Shown here: positions 12,244 to 51,958 of the stretch, in pieces | How the letters are laid out: each line of letters opens with the position of its first letter | How positions within the stretch are numbered: the first letter of the stretch is position 1 | Origin: Paenibacillus phyllosphaerae | Lineage (GTDB): Bacteria; Bacillota; Bacilli; Paenibacillales; Paenibacillaceae | Length of the DNA stretch: 64,000 bases | Direction: 5' to 3' | Assembly (NCBI RefSeq): GCF_014192105.1 | Contig: NZ_JACHXK010000004.1 | Location: forward strand, 62,001 to 126,000 | Translations under genes and position numbers: made by a program | Notes under the pieces: generated by a model | Databases searched by the model: none | Seen by the model: the letters and a program-made list of their open reading frames with translations, nothing else | Told to the model about the DNA's origin: nothing

Positions 12244-12387
12244 GTCTGATCGCTCCTATTTGCAGAATGAGGATGATGAAGCCGACGCGCCACTCGCGGG
12301 ATTCTTCGATCCTTAAGATCGAAGATGCGAAAGGCGGCCGGCCTCTGAATGAGAGCTAATTTCCGTTATCCGTTGTCATCTAATGGC

Positions 12388-14061: not shown

Positions 14062-14120
14062 CGCCTTAACTCCCTTCCCCACCATCATCTATGGTCAAAG
14101 CAATTGCCTTAAACCCGCCT

Positions 14121-22777: not shown

Positions 22778-22858
22778 CTCCATATTCCCCCTGTAATAGC
22801 AATTAGGTTTCCCTGCCCTGCTGCTGCCCTGCTGCTGCCTTCCTACTTGCATTCGTCC

Positions 22859-23743: not shown

Positions 23744-23764
23744 ATTGCGCTTCCCCTTTCCGCG

Positions 23765-24697: not shown

Positions 24698-24789
24698 GCT
24701 CAGCTCCCCCTCGCTTTCTGCTTGTTATGCACTCATTGTAGCCGGAGGAGCCGAGCGCCGCTTACCACGAATCCGACTTTGCAGTTTCG

Positions 24790-26448: not shown

Positions 26449-26500
26449 CGTAATTTGCCCCTTTCTCGAAATATTAAATGTAATAACAGAGGACAGCGTA

Positions 26501-28249: not shown

Positions 28250-28313
28250 CAGCACTCACTTTCAAGGTGATAGTACAAGCGATGTAGCTAAAGAATATGG
28301 GGTCAAACGCTAG

Positions 28314-38300: not shown

Positions 38301-40110
38301 CGCCGCCGACGCCTTCGATGATGGTCGTTACGGCATACGAATAGGTCAATCCCGGCAATGCCGTCGTATCGGTAAAAGAGGTCGATTGCGCGCTGCCGAT
38401 TTTGACCGCTTCTTCGACGCCCGCCTGTGTCCGGTAGATGTTGTACCCGATCGCATCCTGAGCGTCATTCCAAGCAAGCTCCACCGACGCGCTTGGGAAC
38501 AGCTTCCGCTCCGTCAGCTTCAGTCCTTCCGGCACCGCGATCGCCCGGCTCGTCTCGATCGTGATCAGCTTCTCTCCGATTACGCCGCTGCCGTCCGAGG
38601 CGGCCGCTACAACCTTAACGTTGCCCCAGTGCAATGCCTTCAGCATCCCATTGGCGTTAATCGTCGCCAACGTCGTATCCCCTCCATCCGGGGTCTTAAC
38701 CACCCAGCTGACGGAACGGTTGTTGGCGAATACCGGCAGCACCTCCGCCAGCATCTGAAGCTGGCTGTTCTCGGCGACCTTATCGGCTCCGCCAGCACCG
38801 CTCACGGTAAGGGTCTTTACGCTAACGCCGGTATCGTTCACCGACTTAGGCGTAATCTCGACCGCATTCACGCGCCGGTCATGTCCGCCGAAGGTGAAGG
38901 TCATTTTGCGGTCAGTCACTTCAACCGTACCGGACAGATCGCCGAACTGCCTGCTGCTCGTTGACACCCTGCCCAAGTTGACCCCTTCCACCGTTACGGA
39001 TGTCTCATTGGAAGCATCATAGTCGCCAGCCGTTACTTTGACGTCATAAGTACCGTTCGGCAGATCATTCTCGAACGTGTAATCCGCCGTTCCTTGCAGC
39101 AGTACAAAATCGCTCAGCAGCGCATCGCTGGAGCCGCTCCGGTTGCGCGAATTGACCGCTTGGTTAAGACCGTATCCCAGCTTCTCCGTATAGAGCGTAT
39201 TGTCTGCGACCCGAACGTAACCGTCGGCCACCGGACTGCCCGTCGTGCCGAAGTCGAACTTCAGCGGCGCGGTATTGGATGGAGCAATCGTAATGAGCTT
39301 CTCGCCCTTCACGCCGGATGAGTCGCTGGCCGCCGCCACGATCTTTACCGTACCAGGATGTATACCGGTAAGCACGCCTTTGCTATCGATCGAGGCTAAT
39401 ACGGTTGCGCTGCCATCTGGATTAACAACATCCCATGTTACCCAAGGAACGGTGGCATTACCGGGCGATACATCTGCCTGCATTTGAAGTTTGCCGCCGG
39501 TCGTTAAGCTGTCAGCCCCACCTTCGCCCGTTACGGCTATTCCCGAGACGGCAATTTCGCCTGACTGGCCGATCGGCGTAATCTCGATGCCGTTCAGCCT
39601 GGTATCGTTGCCGCTGATCGCGAATACGAGATTGCCGTCGCTCACTTCCACCGTGCCGGTAAGCTCGCCGAACTGACCGCTTGACGTCGTCAGTTGACCA
39701 AGGGTGATGTCCTCCGCGGTTACCGCCGTCTTGTTCGAGGCAATACTGTCGCCGGCATAGACGCGAACGCCGTAGCTGCCATTCGGCACGTCCACACGGA
39801 ACGTATAGCTCTTCGCCGAAGACGTATCCAGCACGAAATCCCGAAGCATATCGCTTACCCCGGCTCCCCGATCACGGGAAGCGATGCTTTTGCTAAGCCC
39901 ATATCCGAGTTCCGGCGAATAGACGGTTGCGTGATTAACGCCCGTATACCCTTCCTGGACTGGACTGCCCGCCGTGCCAAAATCAAATTTCAGCGGCTGC
40001 ACCGCCGCTTCCTCTGCTTGCACGCCCGAGTACCCAGGCAGCAGCGAGAAGATCATCGTCCCGCTGACCAGCGCCGGCATCAATTTCTTCCGCCATTTGT
40101 CGACCCGCAA
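35338..40110 (-). CDS. Secreted multidomain rhamnogalacturonan lyase (PL11) with dockerin-like end
   Basis: A 1590-residue exported enzyme that should cleave the rhamnogalacturonan I backbone of pectin by beta-elimination. Order by rough residue: signal peptide 1-31; malectin-like carbohydrate-binding module 42-183; BIG2-like 190-277; a second malectin-like module 283-427; BIG2-like 432-523; two fibronectin III modules 530-617 and 627-713; PL11 beta-propeller catalytic region 720-1313 (start EYLNRGLVAVPIEEGVYVGWR, with FNLYRDG and ADLDGDGELELVLKWDPSNSKDN); cohesin-type beta module 1320-1450; helical FIVAR-like 1450-1520; dockerin type I pair GDVNEDGQFTIGDL and DFVADGKIDIQDL 1527-1590. The start is TTG at 40110, seven bases after AAGGAGGT; upstream ATG 40149 lacks a site. 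No SLH or sortase signal. Confidence 0.92.
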   Translation of the reverse strand: MRVDKWRKKLMPALVSGTMIFSLLPGYSGVQAEEAAVQPLKFDFGTAGSPVQEGYTGVNHATVYSPELGYGLSKSIASRDRGAGVSDMLRDFVLDTSSAKSYTFRVDVPNGSYGVRVYAGDSIASNKTAVTAEDITLGQLTTSSGQFGELTGTVEVSDGNLVFAISGNDTRLNGIEITPIGQSGEIAVSGIAVTGEGGADSLTTGGKLQMQADVSPGNATVPWVTWDVVNPDGSATVLASIDSKGVLTGIHPGTVKIVAAASDSSGVKGEKLITIAPSNTAPLKFDFGTTGSPVADGYVRVADNTLYTEKLGYGLNQAVNSRNRSGSSDALLSDFVLLQGTADYTFENDLPNGTYDVKVTAGDYDASNETSVTVEGVNLGRVSTSSRQFGDLSGTVEVTDRKMTFTFGGHDRRVNAVEITPKSVNDTGVSVKTLTVSGAGGADKVAENSQLQMLAEVLPVFANNRSVSWVVKTPDGGDTTLATINANGMLKALHWGNVKVVAAASDGSGVIGEKLITIETSRAIAVPEGLKLTERKLFPSASVELAWNDAQDAIGYNIYRTQAGVEEAVKIGSAQSTSFTDTTALPGLTYSYAVTTIIEGVGGVESAKSEPLTVQMFDEGEDKPAKPDGLEVTGTSRYSISLAWNGAEGAKGYYMYRSKSEAGPFAFVGAAAAGSTSYTDNDVLTDVPYYYQVEAVNEGGLSERSDVLTVPIATIYERQMEYLNRGLVAVPIEEGVYVGWRMLGTDAEDVSFNLYRDGRKLNDSPIVGSTNYLDADGTADAQYTVRAIVGGKEQSGESARVWSDSHLNIPLQKPADGVTPSGGAYTYRANDASAADLDGDGELELVLKWDPSNSKDNSNTGYTGNVYIDAYELDGTQLWRIDMGKNIRAGAHYTQFMVYDLDGDGRAEVAMRTADGTVDGEGNVIGDADVDHRDTAGRIYKGPEYLVIFDGMTGKLLAKTDYEPARGRSADWGDDSGNRSERHLAAVAYLDAERPSLIMGRGYYTRTAVAAYNWRDGELTKLWKFDTNDGNSEYRGQGNHNLSIADVDGDSRDEIVYGSMTLDHDGSPLYTTGLGHGDAMHLGDLDPNRPGLEVFGVHEYTTSPYGLALKDAATGEIIWGQHTGIDTGRGLSANIDPRYPGEQMWAIGGEWNAVTGWLFSADGQLITNNIPSTNFAIWWDGDLVRELLDHNWDGTNGVGTIGKWDYEKEEVDNLLTAEGTYSNNSTKGNAVLQADLLGDWREEAIWRTEDSTALRLYTTTDVTEHRIYTLMHDPIYRLGIAWQNTAYNQPPHTSFYLGVGMEQPPMPRIRVNEPIPAEGAVLTGPANVQTGDTFSVVYGLNGIEGPVAAQDVTIRYDEEQLDFVGFSDEALKDEVHVLDYEESPGVVRFLFVDLGADGQQSNRQLVALKFKALGEGQTSVAVAQAMTADSTGSEQTIAGSSYTVTIQAADRSGLRALIAEAQSAHEAAVEGNAVGQYPSGTKAALLTAIGVAQSVANDSGASQSRIEQAATDLAAALQTFRGSVNKPKPGDVNEDGQFTIGDLARVAAVYGAASGDEGWEQLKELDFVADGKIDIQDLAFVASRILGLTE

Positions 40111-40294
40111 ATCCCATACCTCCTTCAGTTTGTATGCTGCTTCTTCCATCCCTCAAGAACATTGGACATCAAGCACATGCGATCTCTTCAGAAGAAAGCG
40201 CTCTCGCAGGAGACAATGACAGTTTAATGGAAGCGGCCGGTGATGTAACCGTAAAAATCAGAGATGTTATTCAAAAATCAGTGTTTGAGGCAAT

Positions 40295-40327
40295 AAAAAA
40301 ATCCAGCCCGGCAAGGCAGGCTGGATG
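40295..40327 (-). terminator. Rho-independent terminator of the nine-gene operon
   Basis: ATCCAGCC (40302-40309) pairs with GGCTGGAT (40320-40327) and the minus strand continues in seven T residues. It lies 14 bp after the TauE/SafE stop and ends the operon that starts at 48893. Confidence 0.88.
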
Positions 40328-40340
40328 GAAATCGGCCGTA

Positions 40341-41087
40341 TTATTGAACCGTGAGCATAATCGCGCCGCACATCCCAAGCAGCAGCACGATGAACTGGAA
40401 CTGAGACTGTTTGATCCGCGGAATGACGTAAATCCCTGCGCATATGCCGGCGGCAATAGCCGGAATCAGCCACAGATTGATCTGTACGGAGTCAGCTGTA
40501 ATCATGTCTAAATGGATGAAAAGCGGCAGCTTGATCAGGTTGACGGTGAGATAGAACCATGCGCCTGTTCCGACGAATACTTCTTTCGGCAGTTTCTTCC
40601 CCAGCAAATACATCGACATCACGACGCCGGATACGTTCCCCACCATGGTCGCAAACCCGGCCAGGGACCCCATAATCGTCGTAAACCAGGCTGACTCGGG
40701 AATCAACAGCTTCATCGCGCTCCCGGCATAATCCTTCAGCAGCTGCACGCCGATCAGCACAAGCAGCATGCAGCCGAGCAAAGGTCGGAGCCTGGTATCG
40801 TCGATGACCGATAATAACAGATAACCGCCTGCAAGACCGACAAGTACCCAAGGAAGCAGCGCGAAAAGATGCTTCCAGACGACATGCCTGCGATAGACGA
40901 TCACAGCCGCGATATCGGCTGCAATCAGCATGGGCAATAGCAAGCCGACCGACGCTTTGGCGGGGAACACTTGCATCATGAGCACGGCGTTGAACACGCC
41001 GAGCGTCGCGATTCCGGTCTTGGCGAAGCCGCATCCGAACCCGGCGATGATCACGATGATGAGCTGCAGAACCGTTAACTCACCCAT
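40341..41087 (-). CDS. TauE/SafE-family anion exporter
   Basis: A 248-residue membrane protein with about eight helices of the TauE/SafE (DUF81) family. The first half shows IIVIIAGFGCGFAKTGI with the conserved Gly-rich turn, the second half MGSLAGFATMVGNVSGVVMSMYLL at the equivalent place. Family members export sulfite, sulfoacetate or other small organic anions. It is the last gene of the Tm-1-like operon, eight bases after the TIM-barrel gene, so it probably removes an acidic end product of that pathway. Which anion is not knowable here. Confidence 0.88.
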   Translation of the reverse strand: MGELTVLQLIIVIIAGFGCGFAKTGIATLGVFNAVLMMQVFPAKASVGLLLPMLIAADIAAVIVYRRHVVWKHLFALLPWVLVGLAGGYLLLSVIDDTRLRPLLGCMLLVLIGVQLLKDYAGSAMKLLIPESAWFTTIMGSLAGFATMVGNVSGVVMSMYLLGKKLPKEVFVGTGAWFYLTVNLIKLPLFIHLDMITADSVQINLWLIPAIAAGICAGIYVIPRIKQSQFQFIVLLLGMCGAIMLTVQ

Positions 41088-41095
41088 CGTTTACG

Positions 41096-41923
41096 TTAAG
41101 AGCCGATGCTTTTGAATCGTTGGACCTGCGAGGTGATGGCGATCTCCGTCGGCAGACGCTCCACGCTGGAAGCCCCGAAGAAACCAGCGACTCCTGTCGT
41201 ACGGCTAAGTACATAAGCGGCGTCCTCGGGCTCGGAGATCGGCCCTCCGTGACAGATGACCAGCACGTCGGGATTAACCGATTTCCCCGCATCGCAGATC
41301 CGTTGCACCACATCGACGGCTTCATCCAGCGTCAGCGCCGTTGACGCCCCGATCGAGCCCTTCGTCGTAAGTCCGACGTGGGCGACCAAGACATCCGCGC
41401 CGGCTTCGGTCATCTTCCTCGCCTCGTCTTCATTGAACACGTATGGCGTTGTTAGAAGACCTAGCTTATGCGCTTGCCTGATCATCTCCACCTCGAGATC
41501 GTATCCCATACCCGTCTCCTCGAGATTTTGCCGGAAGACTCCGTCGCATAGGCCGACCGTCGGGAAGTTCTGTACGCCGGTGAATCCCATCTCTTGCAGC
41601 TGCTTCAGGTACACCTCCATGACGCGGAACGGATCCGTGCCGCATACGCCGGCCAGCACCGGCGTGTCTTTCACAATAGGGAGTACTTCGGACGCCATCT
41701 CCACCACGATCTTGTTGGCATCCCCGTAAGGCATTAACCCTGCGAGCGAACCCCGTCCCGCCATACGGTAACGGCCGGAATTATAAATAATGATGAGGTC
41801 TGCTCCGCCCGCTTCGGCGCACTTCGCCGATAATCCCGTACCCGCCCCGGCTCCGACCAGCGTCGTCCCTTGCGCGACCTGACTTCTTAAGCGCTGTATT
41901 GCTGCTTCTCGCGATATGGCCAT
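41096..41923 (-). CDS. Phosphoenolpyruvate-hydrolase-like TIM barrel (Tm-1 C-terminal domain family)
   Basis: A 275-residue TIM-barrel protein of the family annotated as phosphoenolpyruvate hydrolase, related to the isocitrate-lyase/PEP-mutase fold. Visible marks: [35 protein letters not shown] near residues 20-55, [36 protein letters not shown] and VICHGGPI. The true reaction of most members is unknown. The same domain forms the C-terminal half of the plant antiviral protein Tm-1, whose N-terminal half is UPF0261; here the UPF0261 protein is the first gene of the same operon. ATG at 41923 has AAGGAGAGGG upstream. It lies 11 bp after the cupin gene. Confidence 0.88.
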
Positions 41924-41934
41924 GGTCCCTCTCC

Positions 41935-42297
41935 TTATTCGCCGACCGTTTGGCGGTCTGCGGAAGAATAGGCAATGATCATTCTGCAAGGCTCCCAGCT
42001 CGTCACCTTGGCATTATGCGGTACGCCGCGGGGAATCCGCAGCATCATCCCGGGCTCGAGATGGAACGTTTCCTCCCCCAGCGTATGATCGCACTCGCCG
42101 GAGAGGATGAAAATAACCTCTTCGCAATTGGGGTGAATATGCCGATTATTCTCTTTGCCCGCTTCAATGTAGACCATTCCGAACGTCATTTCCGCTTCGG
42201 GATCGATCTCCTTGCCGCACAGCCACTGGATTTTTCCCCACCCCATATCCAACAGACGGTGCTCCTCTTGCTTGCTCAAACTTGTAATTGTAGCCAT
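41935..42297 (-). CDS. Small cupin-domain protein
   Basis: A 120-residue single-domain cupin. The first motif is [26 protein letters not shown] with His, His and Glu in metal-ligand positions, and the second is [10 protein letters not shown] with the last His. Such proteins bind small ligands or act as metal-dependent isomerases or epimerases of sugars. It sits between the binding protein and the TIM-barrel gene of the operon, so it may isomerise a sugar intermediate. The ATG at 42297 has AAGGAGAGAG upstream. Confidence 0.88.
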
Positions 42298-42346
42298 AGT
42301 CTCTCTCCTTTTTTAAACTTATTTTTCTATTGAACTTCAATAGGCA

Positions 42347-43912
42347 TTATTGGGTCAGAGCTAGCCGTTCCTTGTACGCCCGGTTGATTTCTTCCGTGAT
42401 CTTCTTGTAATTGGCATCATTCTGGATATCTTGAATCAACTTATCCCAATCTTCAATCTTGGCTTTGCCCATGATGACCTGCGTTTTCATATCGGCCATC
42501 TTCTTCGTGTAGTCGGCGCCGAGCTTAATGTCCGTCTCCGATACGAGTCCGATGGCAACATCCGGTTTCGCGACCTTGGCGCGCTCGTCGATTACCTGTT
42601 TGTTGCGGTCGAAAATTTCCTTCGTCATGCCTGGCGCGTATGCATACATGTACGGATCGTACCGCATGAAAAGCTTGCCGAATGCGCCGACGCCAACGCT
42701 GTCCACGACGGCCTGCTCCGTTGCTACCTTCATGCCGTTCTCTTCGTTATAGTGAACGCCCTTGATGCCGTACAGGGACAAGGTGCCCCCTTCTTCCGAA
42801 GCCCCGAAGTCCAGCAGGGACAGTATCTTCTTCATCTTCTCCTCCGAGACTTTCTTCGGAATGGCGAGAACGCCAATATAGCCTCTATACTCAGGCGCGT
42901 ATGGACCATCTTTATAAGTAAGCGTGGACATCGGCAGCCAATCGACCTGAGGATCGCGCTTCCATTGATCGTACGTCCAGCGGAACTGTGCCTCAATCGT
43001 CTCCGCGGTGGCCCCTGCTCTTCCCGTCGTGGCGAGATCCCAGAACTGACTGTCCTTCATGACGGAGAAGTCTGGCGGAATGAGCCCCTCGTCGAACAGC
43101 TTCTTCTTGAACAAAATGGCTTCACGCATGCCGGGATCAAAGTTAGCGTCGATTAATTCCCCGCCAATATCTTTCCAGCGACCATTCGAATTGGTGAACA
43201 CGCCGTCCAATACCTCGTGTCCCCGCATCGTGTAGCCGTACGTATCGGCTTTGCCGTCGGGCTTCTGTTCCTTGAACGCTTTGAGCATGTTGTAGAAATC
43301 GTCTATCGTCTTCGGCACCTCAAGCCCCAGCTTATCGAGCCAATCTTTGCGAATGTTGGTGAACACGAAGCCATTCAGCGGCCGCGCTACGGGAATGACA
43401 TAGTTCTTGCCGTCGATCGACGTATTGTTCCAGACCGATTCCGGATACGTCATCAAGTTCGGATAGGATTTCAAGTACGGCGTCAAATCCCAGAACACGC
43501 CTTGGTAGACCATCTGCTGGAAGAGCGGGTTGGTGACGTCGTTCAGCTTCAGCAGATCTGGCAGGTCGCCTGAGCTCAGCACCACATTAATCCGGTCGAC
43601 ATAATCGGTCCAGTTGGCTCCGGATACCCACGTGATATCCAGCTTCGTATTGGTGTTCTTCTCGAATTCCTTCACAATCGGGTTATCCGCGGAAGGCGGC
43701 TGGGCGATCGTGAAATCCGACATGATCTTGATGGTGACCGGCGCCTCCTGCTTCACCGAGTCGTTGTCGCCGGCAGCATTGCCTTCACCTGTCGAGCCGG
43801 TGCCGGCATTATTCGCATTTCCCGAGCAAGCCGTTAGGCTCGAGCCGAGCGCAATGATCAGTGCCATGGCAGCCATGGTGCTTTTCCTTTTTCGTGTTTC
43901 GAACATTTTCAT
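42347..43912 (-). CDS. ABC sugar-binding lipoprotein
   Basis: A 521-residue lipoprotein with signal peptide and lipobox SLTAC near residue 29, a Gly/Asn-rich linker, and a solute-binding fold of the LipO/YtcQ type (LDITWVSGANWTDYVDRINVVLSSGDLPDLL split over the hinge, and NTSIDGKNYVIPVARPLNG). GGAGGT lies nine bases before ATG 43912. It supplies the importer formed by the two permeases encoded upstream. In this operon the ligand is presumably the substrate of the dehydrogenase and isomerase genes. Confidence 0.92.
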   Translation of the reverse strand: MKMFETRKRKSTMAAMALIIALGSSLTACSGNANNAGTGSTGEGNAAGDNDSVKQEAPVTIKIMSDFTIAQPPSADNPIVKEFEKNTNTKLDITWVSGANWTDYVDRINVVLSSGDLPDLLKLNDVTNPLFQQMVYQGVFWDLTPYLKSYPNLMTYPESVWNNTSIDGKNYVIPVARPLNGFVFTNIRKDWLDKLGLEVPKTIDDFYNMLKAFKEQKPDGKADTYGYTMRGHEVLDGVFTNSNGRWKDIGGELIDANFDPGMREAILFKKKLFDEGLIPPDFSVMKDSQFWDLATTGRAGATAETIEAQFRWTYDQWKRDPQVDWLPMSTLTYKDGPYAPEYRGYIGVLAIPKKVSEEKMKKILSLLDFGASEEGGTLSLYGIKGVHYNEENGMKVATEQAVVDSVGVGAFGKLFMRYDPYMYAYAPGMTKEIFDRNKQVIDERAKVAKPDVAIGLVSETDIKLGADYTKKMADMKTQVIMGKAKIEDWDKLIQDIQNDANYKKITEEINRAYKERLALTQ

Positions 43913-43973
43913 CGTCGACGACCTCCGATTTTGAACGAATGCTTGAATCGCGCTAGCGCCACACGCCCGGTGC

Positions 43974-44855
43974 TTAACCCTTAACGGAACCAAGCATGAC
44001 GCCTTTCGTAAAATGCTTCTGCAAAAACGGATAAATGCACACAATGGGCAGCGTGGAAATGACGACCGCAGCCATCTTAATCGTTTGCGTCGGGATCTGC
44101 TGTTCCGAGATCATCTCGACTGCGGCGCTACCTCCGGTGGAGGTCGAGGAGTCGACGAGCATATTGCGCAGCACGATTTGGAGCGGAACCTTCGCAAAAT
44201 CGTTGATATAAAGAACGGCCGAGAAGAACGTGTTCCAATAGGCAACGGCGTAGAACAGGCCGAATGCCGCAAGAGCCGGCGCCGATAGCGGCAGGACAAT
44301 TCGGAAAAACGTGCCCAGGTCGGTACTGCCGTCGATCATGGCCGCTTCCTCGAGCTCCACCGGGATGCTGTCGAAGAAGCTCTTCATTAAGATGACGTAC
44401 CAGCCGCTGGTTAGCACCGGAATGATCAGCGACCAGACGCTATTGATCAAGCCGAGCTCTTTGACGACGAGATAGGGCGGGATAATACCGGGATTGAATA
44501 ACAGCGTGATGACGATTGCGACGAGCATGAACTGTCTGCCGCGCAGCCGCTTGCGGGACAAGCTGAAAGCCATGGCTGCAGTGACGATGAGGCTGAGGGC
44601 CGTGCCAACCGTCGCCAGAAAGGTGCTCACAGCCGCCGCATTGATAAAAGCCGAGGTGGAGAACAGATATTCATAGGCCGCAAGCGACCAATTCGTCGGG
44701 AAGAGAATAAATCCGTTTTTCTCCGCGAACTCGTGCGAATCGGTGAAAGATACGACGAGTACATAATAAAGCGGGAACAGCGTGACGATGCCAATCAGTG
44801 AAAGCACCGCATAGTTGGCTGCATTGAACAGACGGCTTCCTATGCTTAGTTTCAT
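43974..44855 (-). CDS. ABC sugar permease, YtcP/LplC type
   Basis: A 293-residue permease with six helices; coupling loop ELEEAAMIDGSTDLGTFFRIVLPLS and C-terminus LQKHFTKGVMLGSVKG. AAAGGAGGGG precedes the ATG. It follows its LplB-type partner by 30 bp. Confidence 0.93.
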   Translation of the reverse strand: MKLSIGSRLFNAANYAVLSLIGIVTLFPLYYVLVVSFTDSHEFAEKNGFILFPTNWSLAAYEYLFSTSAFINAAAVSTFLATVGTALSLIVTAAMAFSLSRKRLRGRQFMLVAIVITLLFNPGIIPPYLVVKELGLINSVWSLIIPVLTSGWYVILMKSFFDSIPVELEEAAMIDGSTDLGTFFRIVLPLSAPALAAFGLFYAVAYWNTFFSAVLYINDFAKVPLQIVLRNMLVDSSTSTGGSAAVEMISEQQIPTQTIKMAAVVISTLPIVCIYPFLQKHFTKGVMLGSVKG

Positions 44856-44885
44856 ACGAGCCCCTCCTTTCCGGTACGGCTGGTT

Positions 44886-45848
44886 TTAATAGACCCCTTC
44901 CTCGCCGAACTTCTTGGCCAGCTTATTGGCGATGATGACCAGAATCAGCCCGACGATGGATTTGAACAGGCCGACCGCCGTACTGTAGCCGAATTGCCCG
45001 TTCTGGATGCCGTTACGGTAGACATACGTTTCGAACACGTCCGCTACATCGGTCACGGCCCCGTTCATCATGAGGAAAATTTGCTCGAAGCCGACATCCA
45101 TGATGTGCCCCAGGCGCAAGATCAGGAGCACGATGATGACATTGCGGATCGCCGGAAGCGTAATATGCCAGGTTTGACGAAGCCGGCTCGCGCCGTCGAT
45201 CTTGGCCGCCTCGTACAGCTGCGTATCGACTGATGTAATGGCCGCCAGAATGATGATCGTTCCCCATCCCGTCTCCTTCCAGATGTTCTGGATGGTCAGC
45301 AGCGCCCAGAAGGTGTCCTTGTTGGTCAGAAAATCGTAGCTGGCAAAGCCCGCCCACTGCAGCATCATGTTGATGATGCCGGACGACTGCGATAGGAGCA
45401 GGAACGAGATGCCCACAATGATGACCCAGGACAGGAAGTGGGGCAGATAAACAATCGATTGAATCGTCCGCTTGAAGGCATGATGAGTCACTTCGTTGAG
45501 CAGCAAGGATAGTAGGATCGGCAACGGAAAGAAGAAGAGTAAATTCAAGAAGCTAATCATCATCGTGTTACGGAACAAAATGATAAAGTCGGGATTCGAA
45601 AAAAAGCGGATAAAGTGCTCGAAGCCCACCCATTTGCTGTGAAGGATGCCTAGATAGGGGGAATAATCCTGGAAGGCGATCACCACTCCCCACATCGGCA
45701 CATACTTGAACACAAGGAAGTACAGGATACCCGGCAAAGCCAGCAAATAGAGGTATCGGTCGCGCCTTATATCCGGCCAGAGCCCGCGGCTTCGGGCTTT
45801 TTCTTGCGTGCGGGACTTCCTGCCGAGCTTAGCGATATTGGAGTTCAC
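44886..45848 (-). CDS. ABC sugar permease, LplB type
   Basis: A 320-residue permease with a basic cytoplasmic N-terminus of about 35 residues, six helices, the LplB mark KYVPMWGVVIAFQDYSPYLG and coupling loop TQLYEAAKIDGASRLRQTWHITLP. It follows the isomerase gene by six bases, so it is part of the same transcript. Confidence 0.93.
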   Translation of the reverse strand: MNSNIAKLGRKSRTQEKARSRGLWPDIRRDRYLYLLALPGILYFLVFKYVPMWGVVIAFQDYSPYLGILHSKWVGFEHFIRFFSNPDFIILFRNTMMISFLNLLFFFPLPILLSLLLNEVTHHAFKRTIQSIVYLPHFLSWVIIVGISFLLLSQSSGIINMMLQWAGFASYDFLTNKDTFWALLTIQNIWKETGWGTIIILAAITSVDTQLYEAAKIDGASRLRQTWHITLPAIRNVIIVLLILRLGHIMDVGFEQIFLMMNGAVTDVADVFETYVYRNGIQNGQFGYSTAVGLFKSIVGLILVIIANKLAKKFGEEGVY

Positions 45849-45854
45849 GGACGA

Positions 45855-46634
45855 TCACCTCCGGCTGGCTTTATCCTGCGCCTCTTGGATGCCTTGCCGC
45901 ATATATTCGAGACATTGACGCATTCCCTCTTGGATGCCTCCGCCGCTTTCTTCGTCAGCCGACACCCAGCCCTCATATCGGATCGCGTGGATCGCGCGGA
46001 AAATCGGCTTGAAGTCGATGTCTCCTTCTCCCAACACCCGCCAGTCGCCATCCGCAAAATCCTTCATATGGAAGTTGTCGATGAACGGTGCGAAGCTGGT
46101 AATGATCTCAGCCACGTCCGTGATCCCCGATTTCACCAAATGCGCCGTGTCGACCGTTAGGCCAACAGTCCCTTCCTGAATTTGATCGAAAAAGACATCG
46201 AAGTCCTCGCGGTACATTACCGGTTGGTCGTAATGGTGGTGCAGCGATAGCTGAATCCCTCGCTGTTGCGTCTCCTTGCCGAGCTCTGACAACTGACGGG
46301 CGAATCGGCGGATATCGTCGGCCGTTACCTGCTTTCGGGAGAGACCGTGACAGAATACGATGCGTTCGATGCCGACGCTTGCGCCGAAATCAAGCAGCGG
46401 GGCCAGGCGCGAGCGAACCTCATCATCAACGGCTCCGCCTGCAATCAAGGCCGAAGCCGCACCGGGCAACGCCCCCCATTCCTCCAGGAAGCGTGCCGGC
46501 TCATCGATATAGGAGGCGTACTGGCCATGCTTTAGTTGAAGGCCCGCATATCCGGCGGAACGGTACCCTCTGAATAGAAGGTCCCGTTCCTCATCCGATT
46601 GCGTCGGCCGAGAGAATGCAAATTTGACGTTCAT
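45855..46634 (-). CDS. Sugar phosphate isomerase/epimerase-like TIM barrel
   Basis: A 259-residue protein of the xylose-isomerase-like TIM-barrel group (AP endonuclease 2 fold, IolE/IolI/tagatose epimerase relatives). Metal-site residues are recognisable in ERIVFCHGL, LSLHHHYDQPVMYREDF, GLTVDTAHLVKSG and NFHMKDF. Members isomerise or epimerise keto- or inosose-type sugars, or act as hydratases. Its start overlaps the stop of the upstream dehydrogenase gene by four bases (ATGA), so translation is coupled; the two enzymes very likely act in succession. Confidence 0.88.
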   Translation of the reverse strand: MNVKFAFSRPTQSDEERDLLFRGYRSAGYAGLQLKHGQYASYIDEPARFLEEWGALPGAASALIAGGAVDDEVRSRLAPLLDFGASVGIERIVFCHGLSRKQVTADDIRRFARQLSELGKETQQRGIQLSLHHHYDQPVMYREDFDVFFDQIQEGTVGLTVDTAHLVKSGITDVAEIITSFAPFIDNFHMKDFADGDWRVLGEGDIDFKPIFRAIHAIRYEGWVSADEESGGGIQEGMRQCLEYMRQGIQEAQDKASRR

Positions 46635-47626
46635 ACCAGTACTCCTTGATTCAGTAGAATGGGACGCTGCTCAATAGCGGAACGGTAGGCTGCATCCAGC
46701 ATTGCCACTGTCTTCAGATTATCTTGGGCGCTATTCGGAGCTTCGCCTCCGGTTTCTAGCGATGACAACAGTTGATTCAAGCCTTCGAACGTAGCCGTTT
46801 CGCGGGAGACATCGTTATCCCATGTTTGGATTGGCGTCCTGGAGCCATTCCGGTACAGCTCCACGCTGTTATGCGTGCAATACAGGGTGCCCGTCTCGCC
46901 GATGACGATCATCTCCGTTCTCGGGAATGGAGACGAGAAACTTTGAACATATGTAGCGATCGCGCCGTTCTCGAAGGCAACCTGAACCGTTGCGTCCGTC
47001 TCGCCCGCGCATTCGATCGCCGAGGAGGAGCGCATCAAACTGCTGACGGAAACGGCCTCCGAACCCAGAATCTGACGGAAACCGTCAAACCAATGGATGC
47101 CCATAACGGACAAGGCATGGCGCTCGCACTGGAGACGCCAGCCGGTGTCTTGGCGGAAGAACATATTGTTGAACACGATCGACGTTACCTTGCCGATGGT
47201 ATCCTGGGACACAATATCCTTCACGACGTCGAAGGTGAAATGCCGGCGGAAGTTCTGATTGACCGAGATTGGCACCCCAAGCATCGCGGCTTTGTTCGTA
47301 ACCTCTATAGCATCGATCAACGTATCGGAGAATGGCTTCTCGACGAAGAGCGGGAGGCCTGCCTCCAGCAAAGGGAACACGACCTGCTTGCGGATCGAGG
47401 TCGGGGTACAGACGATCGCAACGTCGATGCCGCTGTTCTGTATAAAGTCATCCAGAGCGGTAAATTGATGCGGAATGCCGTATTGCTCCGCTTTGCGGGT
47501 AAGAATCTCAACATTCGGGTCGCATATGGCAACGACCTCGATCCGGTCCTTCTGGTTTTTATAGCCCTCCAGATGAAGCTCCGTAACGCCGCCCGCACCG
47601 ACAAGACCCACTTTATACGTTTTCAT
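46631..47626 (-). CDS. Gfo/Idh/MocA-family oxidoreductase
   Basis: A 331-residue NAD(P)-dependent dehydrogenase. The Rossmann fold is N-terminal (KVGLVGAGGVTELHLEGY), with AICDPN at the cofactor strand, CTPTSIR and the catalytic-type Lys in FVEKPFSD. The C-terminal alpha/beta domain begins near residue 125. Family members oxidise or reduce sugars, inositols or their derivatives. It is the second gene of the operon, 34 bp after the UPF0261 gene. Confidence 0.9.
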   Translation of the reverse strand: MKTYKVGLVGAGGVTELHLEGYKNQKDRIEVVAICDPNVEILTRKAEQYGIPHQFTALDDFIQNSGIDVAIVCTPTSIRKQVVFPLLEAGLPLFVEKPFSDTLIDAIEVTNKAAMLGVPISVNQNFRRHFTFDVVKDIVSQDTIGKVTSIVFNNMFFRQDTGWRLQCERHALSVMGIHWFDGFRQILGSEAVSVSSLMRSSSAIECAGETDATVQVAFENGAIATYVQSFSSPFPRTEMIVIGETGTLYCTHNSVELYRNGSRTPIQTWDNDVSRETATFEGLNQLLSSLETGGEAPNSAQDNLKTVAMLDAAYRSAIEQRPILLNQGVLV

Positions 47627-47660
47627 TTACCGTTCTCCTCCTTTAAATGAATGAGCGTTA

Positions 47661-48893
47661 TTAGGCCTGTTGCTCCGCTTGCGGACGATCGGCGAGCATT
47701 TCCTTCAGCAGGTCAGCTGCTCGGTCCGCAAACGCTGGATCATTGATATTGACATCCATTTCATAAACGGGAATATTGTCCTTCACATGTTGCCGGATCG
47801 CATCGAAGCAGGCTTGGTCAGCGGCCGGATCCCAGAATGGCTGTCCGGGGCTGTCGAGGATCGATACGCCCCTCATTGGAAGCAGGAAGGCAACCGGACC
47901 TGAACTGGCGTTGGCTTTCTCGGCGAGAATTCGTCCGATCTGCGCATTCTCTTCCGGCGTCGTTCGCATGAGCGTAATATTCGGATTCCACTCAACCAGA
48001 TTCCGACCCGCGTACTTGGCAGGTACAGTGGCCCTGGCATGGAAATTCACCATATCCACGCAACCAGGAGCGATGACCTGGGGAATGCCTCGCTTAGCCG
48101 CTGCATCTCCCCTATCGCTACCTGCCGCAAACACACCGCCCGCGATTTCATCGGCCCACTCCGTCGTCGTTATGTCTAGGATGCCGCCGAGTAAGCCGGC
48201 ATCAGCCAGACTTTCCATCGTCTGCCCGCCGATGCCCGTGCAGTGAAAGACCAACACTTCCAGATTCTCGGCCTCCAGTTGCGCCTTGGCCCGTTCGACG
48301 CAAGTAGTCGTATTGCCGAACATGCTTGCGGCAATCAGCTTCCGATCGCTTCCGGACATGATTTCGGATTCCGTCATGCCGCAAATCGCACCGGATGCCC
48401 GCGTAAAGATGGCTCTGCTGATTCGGTTAATGCCGGACACATCAACCACGGCGGGCAGCATGACGATATCCTTCGTCCCTACATAGTCCCTCGTATTGCC
48501 GGCTGCAACCGTGGAGACGATCAGCTTCGGGAACCCAATCGGGAGCGCCCGCATAGCGCTGCTCGCTACCGCGGTCCCTGCGGTTCCGCCCATGCCGATT
48601 AGGCCATGGATGGCGCCAGACGAAGCAGCCTGCGCGACGACTTTGGCAGCGCCTGCAGCCATGATCCCCATTGCCTTCCCTCGATCGTTGAGAGCGACTA
48701 ATTCCTCTAGCGATATTCCTCCCTCAGCAGCGATTCGTTCACGTGGAATATCTGGATGCAAGCCCGGTTCACCGATAACACCCGTATCGAACACATACAC
48801 TCCGAACCCCCGGCGCTCAATCTCGTTCTTCAGAAAGGCAAATTCAGTTCCCTTGGTATCCATTGCGCCGATCATGCCGATGATTCGCTTCAC
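47661..48893 (-). CDS. Tm-1-like ATP-binding (UPF0261) protein
   Basis: A 410-residue UPF0261 protein. Hallmarks: RIIGMIGAMDTKGTEFAFLK at the start, GLIGMGGTAGTAVASSAM, IVSTVAAGNTRDYVG, FHCTGIGGQTMESLADAG, and the C-terminal LPMRGVSILDSPGQPFWDP. In tomato Tm-1 this domain forms the N-terminal half and binds ATP; bacterial members have no settled reaction. GTG at 48893 lies six bases after AAAGGAGGGG and matches the conserved N-terminus, so I reject the longer frame to 48911. It heads the nine-gene operon. The TIM-barrel half of Tm-1 is encoded near the other end of the operon (41096-41923). Confidence 0.92.
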   Translation of the reverse strand: MKRIIGMIGAMDTKGTEFAFLKNEIERRGFGVYVFDTGVIGEPGLHPDIPRERIAAEGGISLEELVALNDRGKAMGIMAAGAAKVVAQAASSGAIHGLIGMGGTAGTAVASSAMRALPIGFPKLIVSTVAAGNTRDYVGTKDIVMLPAVVDVSGINRISRAIFTRASGAICGMTESEIMSGSDRKLIAASMFGNTTTCVERAKAQLEAENLEVLVFHCTGIGGQTMESLADAGLLGGILDITTTEWADEIAGGVFAAGSDRGDAAAKRGIPQVIAPGCVDMVNFHARATVPAKYAGRNLVEWNPNITLMRTTPEENAQIGRILAEKANASSGPVAFLLPMRGVSILDSPGQPFWDPAADQACFDAIRQHVKDNIPVYEMDVNINDPAFADRAADLLKEMLADRPQAEQQA

Positions 48894-48968
48894 GCAACCC
48901 CTCCTTTGCAATGCCCTCCTTCAAATGCGATCAACTCGATGTAATTCCGGTTTACTCGATTAACATTT

Positions 48969-49030
48969 CTTCAACCTAGTTGAATTGAGATCATCATACA
49001 ACATGAAACCCCTATCCGCAAGCGCTTTCT
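48969..49030 (-). promoter_or_regulatory. Operon promoter with XRE operator and cre site
   Basis: On the minus strand: -35 TTGCGG (49021-49016), 17-bp spacer, -10 TATGAT (48998-48993), start expected near 48986. CTTCAACCTAGTTGAATT (48969-48986), a near-palindrome, covers the start. CGCAAGCGCTTTCT (49017-49030), a cre-like CcpA site, overlaps the -35. This suggests repression by the XRE-cupin protein and catabolite control. Confidence 0.75.
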
Positions 49031-49121
49031 TTTATCTTTTTTTATCTTTTGAAGATAGACTATTTTCGTGAATATCCGCCATTTTTCGCATAAATTATTG
49101 GTAACTTAATGAGCAGAAGCG

Positions 49122-49150
49122 TTGATAATTCAACTAGGTTGAAGTATATT
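49122..49150 (+). promoter_or_regulatory. XRE-cupin gene promoter with operator in the spacer
   Basis: -35 TTGATA (49122-49127), 17-bp spacer, -10 TATATT (49145-49150). The spacer is filled by the inverse copy (49127-49144) of the same 18-bp near-palindrome found at 48969-48986, consistent with autoregulation. Confidence 0.78.
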
Positions 49151-49188
49151 ATACATAAATACAAATCTTAGATTAGAAAGAGGTAACC

Positions 49189-49761
49189 ATGGACCTAGGA
49201 AGACGCATCCGTCTTATACGCAGAGAGCAGAAGAGGACTCAGGAGGAAATTGCCGAAGCATGCGGCTTCACCAAAAGCATGCTGTCTAAGATCGAGAGCG
49301 GCGGTGCCATGCCGGCCGTGTCGACCTTGATGAAAATCGCCAATGCTCTTGGGGTCAAGGTCTCCGACTTGCTTGAAGAGCAATCCAGCAACGACACGGT
49401 CATGGTTACAGCGGGGCAATACGAGGACGTTGAGAAATGGATTAAAACGAACAAAGGGTATTCGTTCTTTGCTTTTGCTTCCAATCGGCATAACAAGATC
49501 ATGCAGCCGTATATGTTTGTGGCACGACAAGGAGAAGTCAATGAACACACTTTCTCCCATGAAGGCGAAGAATTCATATATGTGTTATCCGGTAAGATGC
49601 AATATCGAGTAGGCGGAAAAGAATACGAGCTTAACGCAGGAGATAGCTTGTATTTTAATTCGCTCCAGGAACATACCGTTATCCCGATCTCGGAAGAAGT
49701 TCGCTATTTGGCCGTATTTACCGAGCATCAGTCCAAACAATCGGACGATAAAGATTCGTAA
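49189..49761 (+). CDS. XRE regulator with C-terminal cupin (operon regulator)
   Basis: A 190-residue regulator. Residues 1-62 are an XRE helix-turn-helix (RRIRLIRREQKRTQEEIAEACGFTKSMLSKIESGG), residues about 75-185 a cupin (EVNEHTFSHEGEEFIYVLSGKMQ, then YELNAGDSLYFNSLQEHTVIP) that should bind an effector. It is divergent from the nine-gene UPF0261 operon, and both promoters carry the same 18-bp operator, so it most likely controls the operon and itself. AAAGAGG lies seven bases before ATG; a terminator follows. Confidence 0.93.
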   Translation: MDLGRRIRLIRREQKRTQEEIAEACGFTKSMLSKIESGGAMPAVSTLMKIANALGVKVSDLLEEQSSNDTVMVTAGQYEDVEKWIKTNKGYSFFAFASNRHNKIMQPYMFVARQGEVNEHTFSHEGEEFIYVLSGKMQYRVGGKEYELNAGDSLYFNSLQEHTVIPISEEVRYLAVFTEHQSKQSDDKDS

Positions 49762-49830: not shown

Positions 49831-50763
49831 CTAACCTTCTTCGTTAGAGGCCGATAGATCGATCTCCGTAATGAGATCTTCCAACTCATTTGACATGAAC
49901 CTCTCCATCGCTTCGGAAGCGAGCATCTGCCTGATTGCTGCCTTGTGATCTTCAGTCAACTTCTCGAACGAAATCTCTTCGCGCTGCTCGACCTGGATGA
50001 CATGGTAGCCATATGGCGTCTTCACTGGAACGCCGATCTCACCGACCGCCTGCTCGTTGACGGCATGCTTGAACTCCGTTATGAAGCCGCCCGCAGTTTG
50101 CCATTCATAGAGACCTCCATTGTCACTGGAACCGGGATCGTCGGAATAGGCTTTCGCAAGCACATGCCAATCGCCGCCTGCCTCCAGCTTCGTCTTCACT
50201 TCCTGAATACGATGAAGTGCTGCTTCCTCGGTACGAAGCACTTCTCCTGCCGACATGTCCGTTGTACCGACAAGGATATGGCGCAGCGTGACGATGTAGT
50301 AATCCATCCTGGTCTCTTCGAAAATCGCCATTACCGCATCATCCGTAATTTTGTTGACTTCAGCATCGCCAACCGCGGTAATTAGACGGAAGAAGTACTT
50401 AATATCCGAATCGGATAGCCCCGCTTCCTCCATCCGCTTATTCAGCGCGGTGTCCACCTCAGCCGCCTGCTTCACATACGCATAGAACGTGTCCACTTGC
50501 GTATCCAATATCTTCTTCGCCTCATCCGACATCTCGCCTAAGCGGGAAGCTAACACCTTGTGGCCGATGTATGGCTTGAGAACCGTCTTTTGGTAGGGGG
50601 AATATTGTTCGACATTCATGTATTCCTGGTTCATCAGACTCATAAAACCGATATATTTGGAGAACTCCTCCTCTGTTACGGTTCCGCCTCTGTAGACAGC
50701 AATGATTTTACCGCTCCCAGCATGGGGCATAGGCCCGGTCACATTTTCCCCATCGCTCTGCAA
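49831..50763 (-). CDS. Parvulin-type peptidyl-prolyl isomerase lacking a signal peptide
   Basis: About 310 residues resembling the PrsA/SurA foldases. Residues about 25-150 form the helical chaperone-like part (IIAVYRGGTVTEEEFSKYI), and the parvulin domain is at about 160-260 (LRHILVG, then YSDDPGSSDNGGLYEW and TPYGYHVIQVEQRE). Family members are exported lipoproteins that fold secreted proteins, but the visible N-terminus (SDGENVTGPMPHAGSGK) has no hydrophobic segment and no lipobox. I prefer TTG at 50763, eight bases after AGGGGGA, over ATG 50781. An in-frame stop just upstream excludes a longer start, so either the export signal has been lost or it works in the cytoplasm. Confidence 0.82.
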   Translation of the reverse strand: MQSDGENVTGPMPHAGSGKIIAVYRGGTVTEEEFSKYIGFMSLMNQEYMNVEQYSPYQKTVLKPYIGHKVLASRLGEMSDEAKKILDTQVDTFYAYVKQAAEVDTALNKRMEEAGLSDSDIKYFFRLITAVGDAEVNKITDDAVMAIFEETRMDYYIVTLRHILVGTTDMSAGEVLRTEEAALHRIQEVKTKLEAGGDWHVLAKAYSDDPGSSDNGGLYEWQTAGGFITEFKHAVNEQAVGEIGVPVKTPYGYHVIQVEQREEISFEKLTEDHKAAIRQMLASEAMERFMSNELEDLITEIDLSASNEEG

Positions 50764-50795
50764 GATCTTAGTCCCCCTCATTCAGCTAGATTCCA

Positions 50796-51734
50796 TTAAC
50801 TATCCTCGAATCCCCAAGTGCCCGCAGTTCTTCGCATCGTCTTCATATCTTGCAGCGGAGGCAGACCGAAGAGCCTTCGGTATTCCCGATTGAATTGCGA
50901 TGGACTTTCATAGCCGACAGCTAGTGCCGCGGTCGTTACGCCCATCGGGCCGCTCAACAGCAGGCGCCGCGCTTCCTGAAGACGAAGCTGTTTCTGATAC
51001 TGCAAAGGCCCCATCGTCGTGATCGCCTTGAATTTGTGATGCAGTCCGGAGGTGCTCATGTTGCAGGACTTAGCGAGCTCTTCGACGGTGAACGCACGCG
51101 CGTAGTTTTCTTTGATCCATTGGATCGCCTTGCCGATTCCGTCCGATTGTTGATCGAATAGCGCCTTTTGGAAAAACAAGTGCCCGAATTCGCCCGACAG
51201 CAAGTTGAAAATCATTTCCTTCTTCATCAACTCGGATAAAAATCGCACATCCTCAGGCTTATCGATGAGCTTTAATAATCGAACAAAGATATCCAGTAGT
51301 TCGCCATCCGATTTGCCGATGAACGCACCGGCACTCAGACCTTTCTCTCTCGAAGCCGGATTGATGCCTGCCTCCATAACCACAGACGCGATTTCTTCCG
51401 TCGTAAAATCGATGCGCAGCCCCAGATAAGGCGATTGCTCCATAGCTCCGGTGACTTGGGCGGAAGCCGGCATATCGATCAGCGAGGCCAAATAATCCCC
51501 CGCACCATAGTCAAATATCTCTTGGCCCAGGTAGAGTCTCTTCGTCCCTTGAAGAATCAGACAAAAAGACGGAGTCAGCACGCCGGGGCTTCGCACCGTA
51601 TCTCGACGGTGCCGAATAACGGAAAGAAACGGAACTCTGGTCGATGTCCGTCCATCCGTCAGGGGAATCCGTTCCGTCATGGCTACGAGTTTCTCCAGAT
51701 CTATCCTGTGATGAGGCGTATTGGCTCCAGTCAT
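50796..51734 (-). CDS. AraC-family regulator (AraC_N type), next to an MFS exporter
   Basis: A 312-residue regulator with an N-terminal AraC_N domain (VPFLSVIRHRRDTVRSPGVLTPSFCLILQGTKRLYLGQ split, with GAGDYLASLIDMPASAQV) and a C-terminal double helix-turn-helix (TVEELAKSCNMSTSGLHHKFKAI and TTAALAVGYESPSQFNREYRRLF). ATG at 51734 has AAGGGAGCGG upstream; ATG 51767 lacks a site. It is divergent from the MFS exporter gene and probably controls it. Confidence 0.88.
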   Translation of the reverse strand: MTGANTPHHRIDLEKLVAMTERIPLTDGRTSTRVPFLSVIRHRRDTVRSPGVLTPSFCLILQGTKRLYLGQEIFDYGAGDYLASLIDMPASAQVTGAMEQSPYLGLRIDFTTEEIASVVMEAGINPASREKGLSAGAFIGKSDGELLDIFVRLLKLIDKPEDVRFLSELMKKEMIFNLLSGEFGHLFFQKALFDQQSDGIGKAIQWIKENYARAFTVEELAKSCNMSTSGLHHKFKAITTMGPLQYQKQLRLQEARRLLLSGPMGVTTAALAVGYESPSQFNREYRRLFGLPPLQDMKTMRRTAGTWGFEDS

Positions 51735-51958
51735 TGCGCAGTCACCGCTCCCTTGATCCTCATTCATCTCACCATTCCAATCCTTAACGAAATTATATTA
51801 ACTTTGGATCGGATTGCAAAGTACCGGATAAGACAAATTTGAACATCCTTGCAGTTTTAGGCAATATTCATGCAGGAACGGTCTACTTCCTCCCATGGAT
51901 TCCATTCATAATACGTCTTAAGGAACAGAATCTTGGTTACCAAGGAAGGAATGTGACT

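Follow-up and report, generated by a model that had tools for sequence, protein, structure and literature searches.

A Paenibacillus importer operon built around separate UPF0261 and TBST genes, the counterparts of the two halves of plant Tm-1

The DNA analysed here is a 64,000-nucleotide stretch of the Paenibacillus phyllosphaerae genome (positions 62,001 to 126,000 of contig NZ_JACHXK010000004.1), referred to below in its entirety as the window. Its minus strand carries, from position 48893 to 40341, nine genes that encode in order a UPF0261 protein, a Gfo/Idh/MocA dehydrogenase, an AP_endonuc_2 TIM barrel (the barrel), the LplB and LplC permeases and the solute-binding lipoprotein of an importer, a small cupin, TBST (a PF09370 TIM barrel, the counterpart of the C-terminal half of Tm-1), and a TauE/SafE family transporter (TauE). 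We propose that these genes form a single operon for the catabolism of a compound resembling a sugar or cyclitol, in which UPF0261 would carry out a phosphorylation and TBST the step after it, and we put the probability of this reading at about 40%. The observations that carry it are the gene content, the conservation of the nine genes as a unit, the coupling of UPF0261 with TBST, a palindrome shared with related operons, and the loss of residue H225 in TBST paralogues fused to a DNA-binding domain.

Results

Conservation of the nine-gene set

The set recurs in other genomes (loci are numbered with L and genomes with G), which indicates that the operon is more than a chance arrangement. In L036, from the same family as the window's genome, all nine genes were found in the same order with 78–93% identity, together with a regulator gene, and Paenibacillus agricola (L074) has the full nine and the regulator in a changed order (regulator, dehydrogenase, LplB, LplC, binding protein, cupin, TauE, barrel, UPF0261, TBST). 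Eight of the nine are present in L032 and in L040, where the importer genes are weakly similar (27–42%), and L041 has a set like that of L040 in which the UPF0261 and TBST matches are each split in two. Smaller sets were found in L042 (UPF0261, barrel, dehydrogenase, and TBST) and L072 (cupin, UPF0261, TBST, and regulator). A second version of the operon, in which the cupin, UPF0261, and TBST are related and the importer, dehydrogenase, and barrel are different, occurs in L033, L035, L073, L075, and L083, although L033 and L075 appear to be one stretch of one genome. The window, L036, and L074 have TauE, which was not found in L032, L040, L041, L042, or L072, nor in the five second-version operons.

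Because the set is kept although its order is shuffled, it points to one pathway, and judged by this comparison the nine genes form one unit. This agrees with the preliminary description of the window, made from the sequence alone, which had proposed a single pathway: the set stays together in L036 and under the rearrangement in L074.

Pairing of UPF0261 and TBST across genomes

In a sample of 398 genomes of the same phylum, taken as Bacillota, UPF0261 was found in 61, TBST over the cut-off in 36, and both in 35; two genomes with PF09370 matches below the cut-off were dropped from the count (36 of 38 kept). The two genes are at most 1.5 kb apart on one strand in 34 of the 35 genomes that have both, and the only non-adjacent case is the window's own genome, where they are seven genes apart. 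UPF0261 occurs without TBST in 26 of the 61 genomes. In a sample of 147 genomes taken as Paenibacillaceae (this name, like that of the phylum, is inferred), PF09370 was present in 35 and PF23189 in 34, all within the 35, and the one genome with PF09370 only owes its match to a fragment in an assembly of 580 contigs.

We also examined 80 TBST loci from several phyla, the best 80 of 590 confirmed relatives in named genomes, a choice that leans to close relatives of the TBST. A same-strand UPF0261 gene was found in 75 of them, at a spacing of less than 300 bp or overlapping in 69 and at 443–3504 bp in six. Those without it are L090 and L108, which are short stretches, and L116, L118, and L124, from Poribacteria and Latescibacterota. 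The preliminary description had suggested co-occurrence as a check on its single pathway, and it is seen in 35 of the 36 same-phylum genomes with TBST as well as in these 75 loci; the co-occurrence statistics, here and for RuBisCO below, ignore the kinship of the genomes. Two departures were noted in single genomes: L163 (G172), the sole such genome among the 36, has two adjacent TBST genes and no UPF0261 match, and G337, which gave no TBST match, has a tandem pair of UPF0261 genes (L159).

The preliminary description spoke of an undescribed route; the pairing of the two genes as such is not new. Yang et al. (2016; PMC5028733) reported that, of 504 bacterial genomes with TBST, 491 also have UPF0261, that the trees of the two proteins are correlated (0.886), and that the two genes became fused in plants. 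Separate, partnered UPF0261 and TBST genes are therefore the normal prokaryotic state and already published. Apparent bacterial fusions, open reading frames (ORFs) of 644–737 amino acids at seven loci, L086 of Thermomicrobiales and six actinobacterial ones, were rejected, since in each of the seven UPF0261 occupies the same place as an ORF of its own in a different frame; the three that were inspected read out of frame upstream.

The genes that accompany the pair were counted as tblastn matches at any position within the same 80 loci. A cupin was matched in 31, a Liv-type importer in 23 (a count that perhaps includes other ABC ATPases), AP_endonuc_2 in 9, LplB/C in 8, the dehydrogenase in 7, and TauE in 1. 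The variety of importers and enzymes beside the pair indicates that it serves several substrates.

Stand-alone and fused TBST proteins

In many loci an extra TBST, fused to an AraC-type helix-turn-helix (HTH) or a sigma-54 activator domain, was found near the UPF0261–TBST pair, and TBST can thus probably bind a compound of the pathway. Of 42 candidate fused copies, 34 were retained after removal of seven ORF artefacts and one protein without a TBST domain; the AraC or sigma-54 label was assigned to them by length, and five were checked by Pfam. All 57 stand-alone proteins compared retain H225 of the HGGP motif, and none of the 34 fused copies does; a separate TBST alignment comprised the window protein and 49 of the 80. 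The fused copies also have L in place of Y47 (34 of 34), G in place of A251 (34 of 34), and N in place of D68 (31 of 34). The exceptions among stand-alone proteins are N at position 68 in two copies, both from L161, a cluster with a RuBisCO-like protein (RLP), and the absence of Y47 in one, from L166. This pattern suggests a catalytic role for the stand-alone TBST, with H225 in the active site, and a sensor role for the fused copies. The loss of H225 in HTH-fused TBST is new relative to the literature searched, as far as its available parts go.

The label "PEP hydrolase" of PF09370 is not explained by that literature, in the available parts of which no demonstrated activity was found. A relationship of TBST to PEP mutase or PanB found no support at the profile level: the hhalign probabilities were 1.9 and 3.4, respectively, from 6 and 4 sequences only, compared to 89.6 for the control pair PEP mutase–PanB.

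If H225 were instead to take part in phosphoryl transfer, UPF0261 and TBST could be a single two-subunit kinase in which UPF0261 binds ATP and TBST the substrate, with no TBST lyase step. The plant fusion and the tree correlation would suit a permanent complex (PMC5028733), and TBST is without UPF0261 in only 1 of the 36 same-phylum genomes. PDB entry 9mpy (Saro_1862) has as its title a UPF0261 protein with bound acetovanillone, and the breakdown of acetovanillone in Sphingobium SYK-6 begins with an ATP-dependent phosphorylation. However, the 26 same-phylum genomes that have UPF0261 alone indicate that TBST is not generally needed, and there are two TBST genes for one UPF0261 gene in L161 and L182–L187, so we consider a two-subunit kinase possible but rather unlikely.

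Gene neighborhoods of UPF0261 and the kinase interpretation

In a structural comparison based on an alignment of the window protein and 54 others, UPF0261 shares its fold with the N-terminal domain of Tm-1; the name "ATP-binding" comes from annotation. UPF0261 was found together with an RLP, a class II aldolase, RpiB, a triosephosphate isomerase family protein, and a metallo-beta-lactamase-fold protein in L153, L155, L160, L051, and L056, the RpiB match being several kb away from UPF0261 in L051, L056, and L153. The substrates of RpiB and triosephosphate isomerase are phosphorylated sugars. The known RLPs also use phosphorylated compounds, DK-MTP-1-phosphate and 3-oxo-isoapionate-4-phosphate (PMC6302742). 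No kinase was recognized among the scanned operon genes of L155 and L160, the two presumed permeases of each locus being outside the scan, and the ROK-family protein next to L160 has a DNA-binding domain and is repressor-like. Because RpiB, triosephosphate isomerase, and the RLP imply phosphorylated intermediates and no kinase was recognized, we infer from these neighborhoods that UPF0261 is an ATP-dependent kinase and that TBST acts on its product. The acetovanillone in the title of 9mpy also speaks for a kinase, given the phosphorylation with which its breakdown starts.

Other neighborhoods are of a similar kind. In L152 and L188, a creatininase-family gene and a TctC gene accompany those for a class II aldolase, an AP_endonuc_2 protein, UPF0261, and a dehydrogenase, and in a Thermus plasmid the creatininase, UPF0261, and class II aldolase genes are consecutive. 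Of the 17 same-phylum genomes with both UPF0261 and a RuBisCO-family gene, 16 have the two no more than 6 kb apart, the exception being the window's genome, and TBST is also present in 13 of the 16. Seven of the clusters in these 13 were fetched (L161 and L182–L187); each contains an RLP, TBST, UPF0261, and a second TBST, and five of them also have a gene of the ComB family (2-phosphosulfolactate phosphatase). The clustering of UPF0261 with an RLP, class II aldolase, RpiB, and triosephosphate isomerase and with no recognized kinase is new relative to the literature searched, the available parts of which gave neither a reaction for UPF0261 or TBST nor a link to RLPs. A different type of pathway is represented by L066, L069, and L071, in which UPF0261 has no adjacent TBST and is beside aminotransferases and a phosphotransferase.

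Kinases of the DUF1537 family were matched in 0 of 145 loci using seven query proteins, and DUF1537 was present in 11 of 24 genomes searched, the window's own included. The window's genome and G137 have the UPF0261–TBST pair and no DUF1537 match, but these are too few genomes for a conclusion.

Several results weigh against a kinase role. Homology of UPF0261 to DUF1537 was rejected on an hhalign probability of 0.6 (7 DUF1537 sequences) and on Pfam matches to UPF0261 domains only, and comparison with PFK and NAD kinase gave probabilities of 6.6 and 2.1 against 93.6 for the control, the GG-motif regions being aligned but not significantly. The structural matches that follow the UPF0261 and Tm-1 entries are led by UDP-GlcNAc 2-epimerases and LacI-type proteins; no small-molecule kinase was recognized in the 50 rows shown, an absence that proves nothing because the whole protein was used and single domains were not searched. 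The five RLPs that were scanned scored 262–412 bits against the salvage enolase family PRK09549 and 131–200 bits against OiaX, and only that of L161 exceeded a cut-off (PRK09549, 412 vs 409 bits), and so the RLP clusters may run salvage-like rather than acid-sugar chemistry. Furthermore, the RLP query gave matches in 0 of the 80 closest TBST loci.

The failed profile tests against the three kinase families and the non-kinase character of the leading structural matches would suit another type of ATP-dependent activation by UPF0261, such as adenylation or an ATP-driven isomerization or cleavage, which TBST would complete with no release of a stable phosphorylated intermediate. The diversity of UPF0261 partners (RLP, DHDPS, class II aldolase, creatininase family, and aminotransferases) would suit it as well. 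Nevertheless, it is unlikely in our view, given that RpiB, triosephosphate isomerase, and the RLP imply phosphorylated intermediates where no kinase was recognized in the scanned L155 and L160 genes. The preliminary description had envisaged that UPF0261 performs an ATP-dependent step linked with a reaction of the TIM barrel, and this holds in outline, the narrowing to a phosphorylation being our own interpretation.

The divergent regulator and a putative operator

The interval up to position 49761 also has a divergently transcribed gene for an XRE-HTH regulator with a cupin domain, which was absent from the preliminary description. A perfect 18-nt inverted repeat, with arms 140 nt apart, is located between UPF0261 and the regulator gene, and each arm contains the near-palindrome TTCAAC-nnn-GTTGAA. 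The putative operator TTCAACnnnGTTGAA is thus present at each end of the promoter region shared by the two genes. The pattern TTCAACYWRGTTGAA, with one mismatch allowed, has 2 matches in the window, compared to 0.01 expected.

Relatives of the regulator were found in L036 (90% identity), in L040, L041, and L074 (51–63%), and in L072. The operator pattern is present twice around the regulator–UPF0261 divide of L036 and once in L072, between the regulator gene and the cupin, UPF0261, and TBST genes, and there were 0 matches in 2,399,557 bases of the remaining fetched loci. The motif was not found in L032, L040, L041, L042, or L074, and the operators there may differ. We read the palindrome as the putative operator of the XRE-cupin regulator in its closer relatives, and this regulator probably controls the operon.

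Organization of the operon and its surroundings

The features are listed in Table 1, in which Pfam matches were judged against curated cut-offs. The nine genes and their order on the minus strand, as first described, are borne out by the coordinates and the Pfam matches.

Table 1. Features of the operon, its terminator-like hairpin, and the divergent regulator region (window positions).
Feature	Position	Strand	Evidence
UPF0261/Tm-1-like ATP-binding protein	47661..48893	-	Pfam PF06792 200 bits and PF23189 302 bits (cut-offs 27)
Gfo/Idh/MocA dehydrogenase	46631..47626	-	Pfam GFO_IDH_MocA 74 bits; TIGR04380 101.6 bits (cut-off 355); best PDB match 5uhw, 81 bits
AP_endonuc_2 TIM barrel, IolE-like isomerase or dehydratase	45855..46634	-	Pfam 86 bits; TIGR04379 75.4 bits (cut-off 290); PDB 3cny (IolE) 41 bits
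LplB-type importer permease	44886..45848	-	Pfam BPD_transp_1 PF00528 57.9 bits
LplC-type importer permease	43974..44855	-	Pfam BPD_transp_1 PF00528 42 bits
Importer solute-binding lipoprotein, extracellular	42347..43909	-	Start MKMFETRKRK...SLTAC (by eye); orthologues beside LplB/LplC in L032, L036, L074
Small cupin, recurring companion of the UPF0261/TBST pair	41935..42297	-	Pfam Cupin_2 60 bits
TBST (PF09370 TIM barrel), counterpart of Tm-1 C-terminal half	41096..41923	-	Pfam PEP_hydrolase 448 bits (cut-off 33.8); PDB 2p10 (Mll9387) 361 bits
TauE/SafE family transporter, optional member	40341..41087	-	Pfam 82.4 bits (cut-off 32.6)
Terminator-like hairpin, intrinsic type	40301..40326	-	10 pairs, then T-rich tail TTTTTTATTG; 14 bp past last gene
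XRE-HTH regulator with cupin domain, divergent	49189..49761	+	Pfam HTH_3 58 bits, Cupin_2 60 bits
Putative operator copy, UPF0261 side	48970..48984	+	TTCAACCTAGTTGAA; inside 18-nt arm 48969-48986
Putative operator second copy, regulator side	49129..49143	+	TTCAACTAGGTTGAA; inside 18-nt arm 49127-49144, 100% complementary to first arm

With the starts trimmed, the gaps between successive genes are 34, -4 (an ATGA overlap), 6, 30, 64, 49, 11, and 8 bp; the overlap and the gaps of 6, 8, and 11 bp had been given correctly at first, and the range of 30–61 bp for the longer ones was nearly right, the actual range being 30–64 bp. The likely start of UPF0261 is the GTG at 48893, which has AAAGGAGGGG in front of it (by eye), and a TTG at 48911 is disfavored. 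The binding protein had no Pfam match, and its assignment follows from its operon position and its lipobox-like start. The hairpin agrees with the single terminator expected to close the set. The hairpin scan gave 13 sites overall compared to 12.0 in shuffled sequences, that is, no excess, and so the terminator call leans on the quality and position of the hairpin. No Rfam RNA element was matched at the gathering threshold within the window.

The curated families nearest to the dehydrogenase and the barrel are IolG and IolE, each far below its equivalog cut-off. A plain inositol pathway was rejected on these scores (IolG, 101.6 of 355 bits; IolE, 75.4 of 290 bits), and a plain threonate pathway because the barrel scored 19.1 of 325 bits against the 2-oxo-tetronate isomerase equivalog and missed that cut-off. 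The operon is an ordinary-looking importer set around a known gene pair, and its substrate is probably sugar- or cyclitol-like.

Directly past the operon terminator, at 35338-40149 on the same strand, is a gene for a 1603-amino-acid protein with a rhamnogalacturonan lyase family 11 domain (807 bits) and with galactose-binding, fn3, cohesin, and dockerin-type domains. This gene, together with the best PDB relative of the dehydrogenase, 5uhw, an entry linked to work on D-apiose dehydrogenase, would suit a pathway tied to pectin, such as one for a branched or acidic sugar from rhamnogalacturonan. We regard such a pathway as doubtful: the terminator-like hairpin is between the operon and the lyase gene, the 5uhw match is distant (81 bits), and the gene set mapped in L036 and L074, the flanks of which were not Pfam-scanned, is without a lyase. 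A sulfonated substrate was raised as a speculation in the preliminary description. The breakdown of a sulfosugar or sulfonate, with TauE exporting sulfite or sulfonate freed by the TBST step, would suit the TauE gene of the window, L036, and L074 and the five ComB-family genes, but it is very unlikely, because TauE is optional (absent from the matches in L032, L040, L041, L042, and L072 and found in 1 of the 80 TBST loci), the ComB clusters are distant, and no sulfosugar-specific family was found among the nine proteins in Pfam and NCBIfam scans, a search by name not having been made.

Elsewhere in the window, 9968-14088 (minus strand) has a GH4 family enzyme and a nearby extracellular binding protein, probably a further sugar uptake set, and 21266-28255 (minus strand) has a histidine kinase, an AraC-type response regulator, and a DUF3502 binding protein and resembles a sugar-sensing importer set. 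On the other side of the operon, 49831-50781 (minus strand) appears by eye to encode a parvulin-type peptidyl-prolyl isomerase, and in front of it, likewise on the minus strand, lies the gene for an apparent AraC-type protein (50796-51767).

Discussion

In the pathway proposed here, each reaction, the order of the steps, and the substrate, like the binding of the regulator, are deduced from the genes. The LplB/LplC/lipoprotein importer would take up the substrate, the Gfo/Idh/MocA enzyme would oxidize a hydroxyl to a ketone, and the IolE-like barrel would isomerize or dehydrate this ketone. UPF0261 would then phosphorylate the oxo-intermediate with ATP, and TBST, using its invariant H225, would cleave or rearrange the phosphorylated intermediate to yield products for central metabolism. 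The cupin may be an accessory isomerase or a sensor, and TauE an optional anion transporter.

One parallel is the L-threonate pathway, whose OtnK belongs to the DUF1537 family and whose OtnI belongs to AP_endonuc_2. That pathway consists of LtnD, OtnI, OtnK, and OtnC, and the likeness lies in the combination of a dehydrogenase, an AP_endonuc_2 isomerase, an ATP-using enzyme, and a C–C bond enzyme; the gene sets of L152 and L188 have the threonate layout with UPF0261 in place of the kinase OtnK (PMC12540250). In the window, UPF0261 stands in for DUF1537 and TBST for the class II aldolase. The myo-inositol pathway is the source of the curated families nearest to the dehydrogenase and the barrel, but both are far below the equivalog cut-offs. 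The RLP pathways, those of the methionine salvage enolase and of D-apiose through 3-oxo-isoapionate-4-phosphate (PMC6302742), differ in that RLPs are beside UPF0261 elsewhere, whereas the window operon has no RLP.

Among proteins related to the pair, Saro_1862 has an aromatic ligand according to the title of 9mpy, whereas the importer and dehydrogenase genes of the window operon are of sugar type. Mll9387, the TBST homologue in PDB 2p10, is known by its structure, and no reaction was found for it in the available parts of the literature searched. A Mesorhizobium locus (L065) has a TBST, which may be Mll9387, together with UPF0261, cupin, and Gfo genes. Yang et al. described exactly the same separate pair, and in the consulted parts of their paper neither operon partners nor a link to RLPs nor a reaction is given (PMC5028733). 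Tm-1 and Tm-1L are each one fused plant protein, whereas the window operon has two separate genes, seven genes apart. As a tentative extension, in which we have limited confidence, UPF0261 may be a small-molecule kinase family that replaces DUF1537 in many catabolic pathways, with TBST acting on its product and becoming a sensor after loss of H225, and Tm-1L may be a bifunctional kinase/lyase from a catabolic pathway, which tomato turned against a virus.

Research on the plant protein has treated it as an inhibitor of the replication of tomato mosaic virus (PMC5028733, PMC3855732). Tm-1-like genes are present in nearly all sequenced land plants (PMC5028733), and a primary function of Tm-1 other than virus resistance has been proposed (PMC3475678). 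A bacterial operon with an importer, dehydrogenase, isomerase, regulator, and putative operator offers a growth-based route to the substrate, and the comparison yields both a testable reaction, ATP-dependent phosphorylation, and a testable residue, H225. If the interpretation is correct, an unrecognized kinase family would correct the annotation of a gene present in 61 of the 398 same-phylum genomes, and the operon in the window would be a bacterial system in which Tm-1L-type chemistry can be read out by growth.

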